Source of the DNA: Deltaproteobacteria bacterium
Lineage (GTDB): Bacteria; Desulfobacterota; DSM-4660; Desulfatiglandales; Desulfatiglandaceae
DNA: 41,412 bases
Direction: 5' to 3'
NCBI GenBank assembly: GCA_021163285.1
Contig: JAGGXA010000079.1
Span: forward strand, 1-41,412
Made by a program: the position numbers and the translations under genes. This document shows positions 22,148-41,412 of the stretch, one piece after another (position 1 is the first letter of the stretch; every line of letters begins with the position of its first letter). The notes below the pieces were generated by a model. That model searched no databases and was not told the DNA's origin. It saw only the letters and a list, made by a program, of their open reading frames with translations.

Positions 22148-22308
22148 AGGCTGTCCAAGAATGCCCTTTTTCCCGAACTCTGTGTTATGCGAAAAAAATT
22201 ATCCTCGGAGGTAAGCGATCTTGCGAGACTCCGATATTAACCATATGCCTGCGGTAATTTTTTTCGCAGGCCTTGATTTTGAAAAAAATTGCCATTCCCG
22301 GACAGCCT
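22148..22308. repeat. MITE-like long-hairpin element, copy A2 (inverted relative to A1)
   Basis: AGGCTGTCCAAGAATGCCCTTTTTCCC ... AAAAAAATTGCCATTCCCGGACAGCCT. Confidence 0.8.
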
Positions 22309-31397: not shown

Positions 31398-31669
31398 TAT
31401 GGCGGCATCCCATAAAAAATTAAAATCAGGGCCGTTATTTTTGATTTTAACGGAGAGATTGTTTTTGATTCACTTTTAACCTAAAAATTTCATCCTCTGT
31501 TTTGTTTTTTTGGAGGATACGTTGTTGTATTATACAGTTACAGTCAATTTCAATGAATCTGCCGCTCACCAAAGTCAGGAAGACAAGAAAGGAAAAAATT
31601 AATTAATAATTAATTTTAAATTTTCCTTGACTTAACCTGAAAATCTTTTTATATTTATTTTAAAATTTA

Positions 31670-31850
31670 TGTGTTGTTTGAATTCAGACTGAAAAGGGAA
31701 GACGGTGCAAATCCGTCGCGGACCCGCCGCTGTAACCCCATCGTTTCTTTAATTGTAAAGGAACGAACTTCTCCGGCAATAATGCCACTGCTTTACTGAT
31801 TTGAAACGGGAAGGCGCCGGAAAAGAAGGGAAGCCAGAAGACCTGCTCAT
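31670..31850 (+). promoter_or_regulatory. Cobalamin (B12) riboswitch aptamer
   Basis: 'AAAAGGGAAGACGGTGCAAATCCGTCGCGGACCCGCCGCTGTAA', 'TGCCACTG' and 'GGGAAGGCGCC...GGGAAGCCAGAAGACCTGCTC' are canonical cobalamin-riboswitch/B12-box elements. Confidence 0.93.
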
Positions 31851-31921
31851 AATGTATGGAAGAAAATGTGCTGTCCTCGCGGAACAGAAACATGCACACT
31901 TGATGGTGGATAAAAAATGGT

Positions 31922-32234: not shown

Positions 32235-33209
32235 ATGAAAAAGTTTAATTATTTTTGCATTGCATTTATTCTGTCACTGTCACTTGCTGCATCTTCCTTT
32301 GCCATGGGCCGGCAAAAAATTAAAAAAGCCATTGTACTTGCGGGATTCGGCACAAGTTATCCCTCTGCTTTAATTTCATTTACAGATTTGCAGAAAGAAG
32401 CGCAGAAAGCTTTTCCCGGAGTTAAAGTTAAGATCGCCTTTACATCAAATATCATCAGAAGAATCTGGCATAAAAGACAGGATGACAAACAGTTTTTAAA
32501 GGACAATAAAAATATTCCGGAGGAAATACTTTTTGTAAAAGGGCCGCTTGCAACAATTGCCGATCTCCAGGATGAGGGCTATAATACCATTATTGTACAG
32601 CCTACCCACGTATATGAGGGAGAGGAATACACAGATCTTTCTTCCTATATCAGCGGGCTTAATGCCATTAAAACCGTTAAGAAAAAATACATGCCTTTTA
32701 AGAAACTTGTGCTTGGCCGTCCCATCCTTGGCAAGAAAGGCCCGGAATACGACTATCATAAGGACATGGAGATCGGCGCAAAAGCCATGGCAGGGGATGT
32801 CGCTCTTGCAAAGAATAATAGAGCAGCTCTTGTTTACATGGGCCATGGAAATGAATTCCTGACAACCGGCGCTTATATAGAATTTCAGCAGACAATGAGA
32901 AAGATGTACCCTGACACCCCGATTTTCATTGGTACGGTGGAAGGGTATCCATCACTTGAAAATGTTGTAAACGGTCTTATGCACAGTAAAATTAAAAAAA
33001 TTGTGTTAAAGCCCCTGATGATTGTTGCAGGCGATCATGCAAACAATGATATGGCAGGCAAAGATGATGATTCATGGAAAAATGTTATAAAAGCTCATGG
33101 TATAAGGGTTATCACCGTGATTCACGGAATTGGTGAAAATCCCGAGATAGGTAAAATTCTTATCCGGCACATAAAGGATGCTGCAAAGGATAATAAGATT
33201 AAATTGTAG
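32235..33209 (+). CDS. cbiK: Sirohydrochlorin cobaltochelatase, CbiK type, with signal peptide (periplasmic)
   Basis: N-terminal signal 'MKKFNYFCIAFILSLSLAASSFA'; 'KKAIVLAGFGTSYPSALISF', 'VQPTHVYEGEEYTDL', 'YMGHGNE', 'VLKPLMIVAGDHANNDMAG'. Confidence 0.92.
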   Translation: MKKFNYFCIAFILSLSLAASSFAMGRQKIKKAIVLAGFGTSYPSALISFTDLQKEAQKAFPGVKVKIAFTSNIIRRIWHKRQDDKQFLKDNKNIPEEILFVKGPLATIADLQDEGYNTIIVQPTHVYEGEEYTDLSSYISGLNAIKTVKKKYMPFKKLVLGRPILGKKGPEYDYHKDMEIGAKAMAGDVALAKNNRAALVYMGHGNEFLTTGAYIEFQQTMRKMYPDTPIFIGTVEGYPSLENVVNGLMHSKIKKIVLKPLMIVAGDHANNDMAGKDDDSWKNVIKAHGIRVITVIHGIGENPEIGKILIRHIKDAAKDNKIKL

Positions 33210-33222
33210 ATATCCGGCTGCA

Positions 33223-33362
33223 GGCTTCACCATATCTGTCAATGGTGCGGATTGCCTGATTGCCCTGTGATTGCTTGATATTTTCTGCTTCCCTACGGAT
33301 GATATCACTCTGCAATACAGGGTAATCAGGCATTGCCTGTTAACAGTGCAGAAAGGTGAACC
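33223..33362. repeat. About 140-bp imperfect long inverted repeat downstream of cbiK
   Basis: GCCTGATTGCCCTGTGATTGC (33254-33274) versus GCAATACAGGGTAATCAGGC (33312-33331); outer GGCTTCACC/GGTGAACC. Confidence 0.7.
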
Positions 33363-33666
33363 ACCATGTTTTTTTGATTATAGAGCCGGATGAAAATTTT
33401 AATCCCCGTAAAGCTCTATGCATTTCTTAAGGTTAAAGGTTTTATGTTTTCGAACAGACAATATTGGGAACGCACAATAAATAACTTGAACAAATTAATC
33501 TTTTTTTGCCGTCTTCCTTGTTACTCGTCGATCACATAACCCGTTACGCTCGCTCTTCGCGCCTTGAATACAACAAAAAATCCTGTCAATTTTTGTTCAA
33601 CTTGTTTATCTCCCGTTCCTTGGGTATACGTATATTATTTTTTTCCGGTTTTCTAAAGGAAAAAGG

Positions 33667-33796
33667 GGGCATTCTTCATTTTGAGGTAAAAATGGTTGAC
33701 ACTTTTATTGGAACTAAAGATTGTAAATTGCAGAAAAGGCTTATAGCCTTTTAAATCAGCGGCAGGATGCCGCTGCCACTTTTCTGCCAGGTGTAA
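33667..33796. repeat. Structured direct repeat family D, copy 1
   Basis: Near-identical to 41188-41317; hairpins AAAAGGCT-TAT-AGCCTTTT and AGCGGCA-GGA-TGCCGCT. Confidence 0.9.
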
Positions 33797-33836
33797 AGTA
33801 AAAATGAAGGATGCCGGAAAAAGGGAATTTTTTATT

Positions 33837-35252
33837 ATGATAAAAAAAACTTCACTCATACTGGCCGCGATGGAGTTTGTTTTAATATTGGGTTTTGCCG
33901 TAATTGCCGGAGCCTTCACTTTTACGGATAGTTCCAATGAAAAAATTATAGGTGACAGACCATTTAAAAGGATAATTTCCCTGTACGGCGCCCATACTGA
34001 AAATCTTTTTTCCTTAGGTCTTGATAATGAAATAATTGGCGTTTCCAAAAATGAGGCCTACCCGCCCATGACCATGAAAAGACCGGTTTTTTCCTATCAT
34101 GATGATGCTGAAAAATTTATTCCGGCCCGCCCTGATCTTATTTTGATAAGACCGATGATAGCCTGTGCATATAAAGGCCTTTTAAAAGAACTGAAAAGGG
34201 CTGGTATTACTATTGTATCTCTGCAGCCGAGAACCGTGGATGAAATGTATTCATACTGGAAAGAACTTGGCATGCTCACGGGGAAGGAGAAACAGGCCGG
34301 AAAAATGATAGAGGACTTTCATAAAGAAATCGGCAAAATTAAATCGATTTTGAATAAGATTCCTTTATCAAAAAGAAAAAGAGTTTATTTTGAGGCAATA
34401 CACAGCAGAATGAAAACCTTTGCCCCATCATCCATTGCCGCATTTGCACTTAAAACCGCCGGCGGTATCAATGTAGCGGAAGATGCAAAGGCAAGAAGGG
34501 GAACCAATATTGCCGAATATGGTAAAGAGCGTATTTTATCCCATGGAAATGAAATTGATGTGTTTCTTGCCCAGCGCGGGGCAATGAACCATGTTAATAT
34601 CAGAAAAATAAGGGAGGAAGGCGGTTTTAAGGCCATTAAAGCTGTAAGAGACAGTCAGGTATTTATCATTGATGAAAAAATAGTCTCAAGACCAACAATG
34701 AGATTATTGGATGGAATATATGAAATAGGAAGGATTCTCTATCCTGCATATTTTAATGATATAAGCAGTTTTTTAAAAAAGAGAACTCTTACCAGGGCTG
34801 ATTTTGCAGAATTCTTTGTTAAAATGATGAATATTCGCCTTAAAACTCCAAACTATCTTTATGATATAAAGAAAAGGGCAAAGACAAAACATAAATACGG
34901 AGATTTCAAAGATATCGATTATTTCGGGGACAGGTACAAGTATATTGAAACAGCTGTTAACAAGGGGCTTTTCAACAATGTTAAAAAATATAAATTTTAC
35001 CCTGACCTTCCCATCACAAGGCAATCCGTTGCCTATGCAGTGTTCATGTATTTTGACCTTCCAGATTCCTTTGCATCCGTTGCAATCAAAGATGTAAAAG
35101 ATTCTTGTCCGCTGTACAGTCAGATAGAATCAATGGTTAGTTTAAAATTGATGTATTTAAATAAAGCAGGCGAATTTATGCCGGAGAATCCGGTTTCAGG
35201 AAAAGTCCTGTTTCAAATGTTAAAAAAAGCAGCAGAGTTGAACAAAAATTAA
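33837..35252 (+). CDS. BtuF/FepB-like periplasmic binding protein fused to C-terminal SLH-like repeats
   Basis: N-terminal 'FKRIISLYGAHTENLFSLGLDNEIIGVSKNEAYPP...RPDLILIRP...GITIVSLQP' (type III SBP). C-terminal 'LTRADFAEFFVKMM...FKDIDYFGDRYKYIETAVNKGLFNN...KFYPDLPITRQSVAYAVFMY...IKDV...YSQIESMVSLKLM' (SLH-like). Confidence 0.8.
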   Translation: MIKKTSLILAAMEFVLILGFAVIAGAFTFTDSSNEKIIGDRPFKRIISLYGAHTENLFSLGLDNEIIGVSKNEAYPPMTMKRPVFSYHDDAEKFIPARPDLILIRPMIACAYKGLLKELKRAGITIVSLQPRTVDEMYSYWKELGMLTGKEKQAGKMIEDFHKEIGKIKSILNKIPLSKRKRVYFEAIHSRMKTFAPSSIAAFALKTAGGINVAEDAKARRGTNIAEYGKERILSHGNEIDVFLAQRGAMNHVNIRKIREEGGFKAIKAVRDSQVFIIDEKIVSRPTMRLLDGIYEIGRILYPAYFNDISSFLKKRTLTRADFAEFFVKMMNIRLKTPNYLYDIKKRAKTKHKYGDFKDIDYFGDRYKYIETAVNKGLFNNVKKYKFYPDLPITRQSVAYAVFMYFDLPDSFASVAIKDVKDSCPLYSQIESMVSLKLMYLNKAGEFMPENPVSGKVLFQMLKKAAELNKN

Positions 35253-35789: not shown

Positions 35790-35832
35790 GATAAATTAGC
35801 ATTCACCGGCGTCCTGTCTACACACGTTCAGC

Positions 35833-35994
35833 AGGCTTTCCGGGAATAGCAATTTTTTTTCAAAATCAAGGCTTGCTCGAAAAATTACCGCAGACATATA
35901 GTTGATATCGGAGTCTCGCAGGCTCGATTACCTTTGAGGATAATTTTTTGAGCATAACGCAGAGTTTGGGAAAAAGGGCATTTTCGGAGAGTCT
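35833..35994. repeat. MITE-like long-hairpin element, copy A4
   Basis: AGGCTTTCCGGGAATAGCAATTTTTTTTCAAAATCAAGGCTTGCTCGAAAAATTACCGCAGACATATAGTTGATAT...GATAATTTTTTGAGCATAACGCAGAGTTTGGGAAAAAGGGCATTTTCGGAGAGTCTCC. Confidence 0.8.
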
Positions 35995-36172
35995 CCCGGG
36001 CAAGAGACACAGGGATGGTTTTAATCACTCATCCTGGTCACGCGCGCCGGGCGCGCCGGAGAACGCTTACATGCCTGTAGTCCCCCGTAAGGTCGTACCC
36101 CTCGCGAGCCCTTACCATATTAACCCTGAACCATTCAACCCCTGAATGGTTATGTAATTTTTATAAGGAAAC

Positions 36173-41187: not shown

Positions 41188-41317
41188 GGGCATCCTTCAT
41201 TTTGAGGTAAAAGTAGTTGACACTTTTATTGGAACTAAAAATTGTAAATTGCAGAAGAGGCTTATAGCCTCTTAAATCAGCGGCAGGATGCCGCTGCCCT
41301 TTTTCTGCAAAATGTAA
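41188..41317. repeat. Structured direct repeat family D, copy 2
   Basis: Near-identical to 33667-33796; hairpins AAGAGGCT-TAT-AGCCTCTT and AGCGGCA-GGA-TGCCGCT. Confidence 0.9.
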
Positions 41318-41412
41318 CCTAAATCCTGCAAGCGTCGAGTTTGCCAAAGACCTACCTGCTGCAGGCAGGTGCAAGGCGGCAAGGGCGCAGACGTACTATG
41401 ATACTTCAAGTC

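Follow-up and report, generated by a model that had tools for sequence, protein, structure and literature searches.

The window, by which we mean the whole 41,412-nt stretch of DNA analyzed here, carries a gene for a solute-binding protein (SBP) with an SLH-fold tail, preceded on the same strand by a cobalamin riboswitch and cbiK. The riboswitch, an adenosylcobalamin (AdoCbl) aptamer at 31654–31864 (+), matches Rfam family RF00174 with 92.3 bits against a gathering threshold of 31.5, and a 402-nt region covering most of it is 86% conserved in L053, an independent draft metagenome-assembled genome (MAG) and the closest relative. Downstream lies cbiK (32235–33209, +; PF06180, E = 2.2e-74), encoding a class II cobaltochelatase of the CbiK-P type, the N-terminal signal peptide of which was called by inspection of the translation. 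The gap of 627 nt between cbiK and the SBP gene begins with a strong hairpin just 3′ of cbiK (33215–33345, +; z-score −6.6) that is 89% identical in L053 and has no match in Rfam; it may act like a terminator or in regulation. Also between the two genes is a copy of a dispersed repeat of approximately 150 nt (33660–33822). Most of the other contigs examined in this genome (L035, L037, L051, L165, L166) have copies of it that are 87–93% identical, L053 has none, and a further copy lies in the window at 41188–41323. A second dispersed repeat of approximately 160 nt lies downstream of the SBP gene (35830–36000), with a copy at 22148–22308 and others on L165, L035, and L166 (78–93%).

Architecture of the fusion protein

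The fusion is encoded by an open reading frame at 33804–35252 (+; 482 aa). Translation more likely begins at the internal ATG at 33837, since this coincides with the N-termini of orthologues in the alignment. Its first residues form a predicted type I signal peptide (33837–33917, +) with no Cys lipobox, judged by eye from the translation and the orthologue N-termini, without a predictor; the earlier note on this DNA had likewise seen no lipobox. The adjoining domain (33972–34676, +; residues 57–291) matches Peripla_BP_2 (PF01497; E = 4.5e-15, 56.1 bits against a cut-off of 27.5), which bears out the type III solute-binding domain that the note had assigned to the N-terminal half. The full-length AlphaFold2 model (mean pLDDT 80.9) has the two-lobed, helical-backbone SBP fold, its top Foldseek matches in the PDB being iron, heme, and B12 SBPs (probability 1.00). 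The class III fold is shared with BtuF of E. coli and V. cholerae (1N2Z, 5YSC), but the protein scores far below the cut-off of the BtuF equivalog model (NCBIfam NF002894; 35 bits vs. 234) and is not BtuF by that measure; it also has a distinct set of conserved His, Tyr, and Met residues. H64, H200, Y61, R116, M203, and others are kept in at least 77 of 80–81 SBP orthologues, while the His/Tyr/Arg/Met set is missing from the two other BtuF-like SBPs of the same genome, which suggests a ligand of the protein's own, perhaps a cobalt-tetrapyrrole.

The tail (34752–35249, +) consists of three SLH-like units, as seen from PF00395, fold comparison, and alignment. Its best unit (34905–35033, +; residues 368–410) matches PF00395 (E = 1.1e-8; 35.4 bits, above the 20.8 cut-off), so that a failure of HMMs to detect SLH, which the note had named as refuting its view, did not occur. 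The tail was also modelled separately with AlphaFold2 (mean pLDDT 82.4), and the top 15 PDB matches of this model in Foldseek consisted only of SLH domains, from SpaA and Sap (best E = 2.3e-5, probability 1.00; TM 0.56–0.68), as expected of an SLH-trimer fold. Chance resemblance is ruled out by these matches together with the finding that all 20 sequences in the C-terminal domain alignment match PF00395. The tail starts just after the motif LYPxxF, where tail-free orthologues end, which rules out the ordinary SBP extension that the note had held up as the contrary outcome. An assembly chimera was also rejected, given that L053 independently carries the same fusion at 82% identity with the same riboswitch and cbiK upstream.

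Unit 1 of the tail is shortened (FNDI...LTRAD), unit 2 reads FKDI...GLFNN...ITRQS, and unit 3 reads IKDV...VSGK. The linker between units 1 and 2 is well conserved in the family (LKTPDYRxDIxKRxxxxHxYGDFKDV). The SLH trimers of SpaA (6CWC series) and Sap (3PYW, 6BT4) share the overall fold and the FxDV and TRA(E/D) motifs with the tail, but the latter differs in its shortened unit 1, the replacement of Arg by Gly in unit 3, and the lack of Trp13 and Gly29.

Operon context and the location of btuCD

In most relatives the usual gene order is cbiK-btuC-btuD-SBP-cbiL, and in some a porin gene precedes the operon (in L038 of the LbtU family, by NCBIfam) and cobalamin genes follow it. Loci that encode the SLH tail carry cobalamin riboswitches, directly upstream of the fusion gene in L069 and upstream of the operon in several others. 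In Desulfovibrio, a B12-element was reported over cbiK-cbiL and btuCDF (Rodionov et al., PMC545781), and in the norcobamide cluster of Sulfurospirillum multivorans CbiK, BtuC, BtuD, and BtuF are encoded side by side as SMUL_1551–1554 (PMC7755780), with BtuF detected in the proteome (PMC4585668). The Desulfovibrio CbiK-P/BtuCDF/CbiL locus thus has the same set of a cobalamin riboswitch, CbiK, BtuCD-type permease and ATPase, and SBP, but no SLH tail has been described for it, and in the window SBP and CbiK are split from btuCD. The S. multivorans system has the same four-gene order, while its SBP is a protein of 302 aa without a tail. We found that both the Sulfurospirillum norcobamide cluster and Ilyobacter have the cbiK-btuC-btuD-SBP quartet, and by inspection the CbiK of both has a signal-peptide-like N-terminus and appears to be exported. 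Sulfurospirillum sp. 'SP' has a homologue on a plasmid, with 46.5% identity across the SBP domain, and its CbiK starts with such a sequence. Should the CbiK that accompanies BtuCDF in the Sulfurospirillum norcobamide cluster (L170:6262–7164) be the sole cobaltochelatase there, de novo cobamide synthesis would insert cobalt outside the cytoplasm. Searches of the open-licence literature turned up no report of a comparable SBP-SLH fusion. The protein is a variant of a known importer system, and one that is undescribed as far as the searchable literature shows.

The window holds no BtuCD permease or ATPase, as the earlier note had stated. The note had overlooked the riboswitch at 31654–31864 and the presence of btuCD elsewhere in the genome. 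The orthologous btuC-btuD pair sits on contig C73 (L035), where btuC is preceded by its own cobalamin riboswitch (L035:4302–4488, minus strand; RF00174) and btuD is followed by a degenerate SBP-SLH copy and then by cbiL. This copy (L035:1180–1994), between intact btuD and cbiL, has an internal deletion of approximately 227 residues and a frameshift; the genome is a draft MAG in which C73 and the window lie on different contigs, and part of the damage to this copy could be an assembly error. Four FecCD-family matches occur in the genome, with only the C73 BtuC belonging to this operon type. The genome also encodes a cytosolic-looking CbiK on contig C2, and a 117-aa CbiK fragment (G000 contig C252:3596–3883; L160, L166) is a third cbiK-like sequence. 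A comparable separation is seen in the independent genome L067, in which btuCD has no SBP within approximately 1.5 kb and cbiK-SBP-SLH is on another contig. The draft genome of L053, whose cbiK-SBP-SLH layout matches that of the window, yielded no close BtuC. The cbiK gene adjoins the SBP gene even where btuCD lies elsewhere (window, L053, L066, and L067).

The features of the importer system are distributed over two loci in this organism: exported cbiK next to the fusion gene and btuCD on C73, with an RF00174 riboswitch before cbiK in the window and before btuC on C73. Given that btuCD on C73 stands beside a degenerate SBP-SLH copy, the window protein probably serves the C73 BtuCD in trans. 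The link that the earlier note had drawn to periplasmic CbiK and to tetrapyrrole or cobalt handling holds up, but the apparent detachment from BtuCD does not, in view of the orthologous btuCD on C73 and the contiguous operon in relatives.

Distribution and evolution of the tail

We scanned 84,980 genomes of named species, which yielded 318 relatives, and kept the best 80 of these. This survey, along the lines that the earlier note had proposed, found the tail in 22 of the best 80 of the 318 named SBP orthologues. All 22 carriers are MAGs or drafts labelled Desulfobacteraceae, Desulfobacterales, Syntrophobacteraceae, or unplaced deltaproteobacteria. A profile of the tail matched 7/85 genomes of the order (E 1e-8), the class-level search covering the same 85 genomes, and 9/395 genomes of the phylum (E 1e-6), with one of these nine matches weak. 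The fusion is real, recurrent, and conserved.

In a tree of the SBP domain only, tail state changes approximately six times in the best tree and at least three times on well-supported branches. A single clade of tail-bearing SBPs was rejected on the SBP tree (AU test, p = 2e-6). The tails are homologous, so that they were probably either gained once and lost several times or exchanged. Some close relatives, such as L075 and L077, have lost the tail cleanly, and the importer can therefore do without it. A comparison of the window with L053 gives dN/dS values of 0.10 in the SBP domain and 0.19 in the tail, the latter value indicating that the tail is maintained by purifying selection. TPR lipoproteins of relatives (L141:583–1800 and L146:580–1803) have a weak C-terminal SLH-like domain and are a possible source of the tail.

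Possible roles of the tail

Wall anchoring through SLH units, as the earlier note had suggested, would in its classical form have the tail bind a pyruvylated, peptidoglycan-linked polymer, as in the S-layer proteins of Gram-positive bacteria. The SLH fold is genuine, by both PF00395 and Foldseek, and the TRA(D/E)-like Arg43 is retained in units 1 (17/19) and 2 (18/20). However, the predicted wall-polymer site combines Gly29, Trp13, and Arg43, contributed in that order by three successive SLH units (Blackler et al., PMC6081394), and no groove of the tail has this pattern across 20 homologues. In units 2 and 3 both Gly29 and Trp13 are found in 0/20 homologues, in unit 1 the corresponding segment is missing, and in unit 3 Arg43 is found in 0/20, with Gly in every homologue. 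Judging from this alignment, the residues by which SLH domains hold the usual wall polymer are gone from the tail. Moreover, PF04230, the CsaB-type pyruvyl-transferase family, had no match in the 97%-complete genome, while 8/14 controls were positive, and at E 0.001 it had none in 12/15 genomes with the tail. The SLH search recognized no second SLH gene in the genome, the window gene being its only match. Because no groove fits, PF04230 is absent, and there is no other SLH gene, canonical SLH-pyruvyl anchoring is unlikely; of the earlier suggestion, the SLH unit itself stands and the classical form of anchoring does not.

Instead, the tail could bind a protein of the same system, such as exported CbiK or BtuCD, and so allow local handover of a metalated tetrapyrrole. 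The adjacency to cbiK where btuCD is distant speaks for such docking, as does the conserved, family-specific linker, which would be unexpected in a generic wall binder. On the other hand, most orthologous loci pair CbiK and BtuCD with tail-free SBPs and, to our knowledge, known SLH domains bind wall polymers rather than proteins; we regard docking as possible but tentative. The lack of an adjacent permease in the window and in L053, and of a close BtuC in the L053 draft, would also fit a protein that scavenges or stores cobalt or tetrapyrrole in the periplasm on its own, with no transporter role. That role is quite improbable given the btuCD linkage in most orthologues and the orthologous btuCD on C73. 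A vestigial tail without function, in the course of a loss already seen in the C73 copy and in L075 and L077, is very improbable. The repeated changes of tail state, and losses within tail-bearing clades, are what would be expected of it, but the tail dN/dS is not, nor is its retention with fixed motifs by 22 orthologues (among the best 80 of 318) across several families.

We consider it most probable, at roughly 0.6, that the window protein is the substrate-binding subunit of a B12-repressed importer of cobalt-tetrapyrrole or corrinoid, and that its SLH-like domain, specific to the lineage, serves in retention or docking. It would be the periplasmic SBP of the CbiK-P/BtuCD importer of sulfate-reducing and related bacteria, made when cobalamin is scarce. 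The SBP would take up a cobalt-tetrapyrrole or corrinoid, possibly cobalt-sirohydrochlorin from exported CbiK, and would hand it in trans to the C73 BtuCD, since the C73 operon's own SBP-SLH copy is broken. The tail would be a lineage-specific addition that probably keeps an otherwise soluble SBP attached to the sacculus or a partner protein, using a ligand other than pyruvylated polymer. The host's group is diderm, and any tether provided by the tail would therefore act within the periplasm. The outer-membrane tethers OmpM and SlpA also place an SLH domain in a diderm periplasm (PMC10628300, PMC9388160), but the domain content of the window protein includes neither the outer-membrane beta-barrel that OmpM-type proteins join to SLH nor a stalk, and its partner domain is a soluble SBP.

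The importer system is already known, while its substrate is an assumption rather than a demonstration in the surveyed literature. A more specific and rather doubtful extension is a repurposed SLH tail that docks the SBP on exported CbiK or the sacculus, giving a localized periplasmic line with cobalt inserted into a tetrapyrrole outside the cytoplasm and the product passed to BtuCD for corrin synthesis. If true, this would be a function of the SLH fold beyond gripping pyruvylated wall polymers, and would give a reason for exported cobaltochelatases. With its wall-polymer residues gone, and with its SBP partnered by an exported cobaltochelatase, the conserved tail offers a handle on why some bacteria export CbiK and on what the SLH-like domains of diderms without pyruvylated polymers bind.
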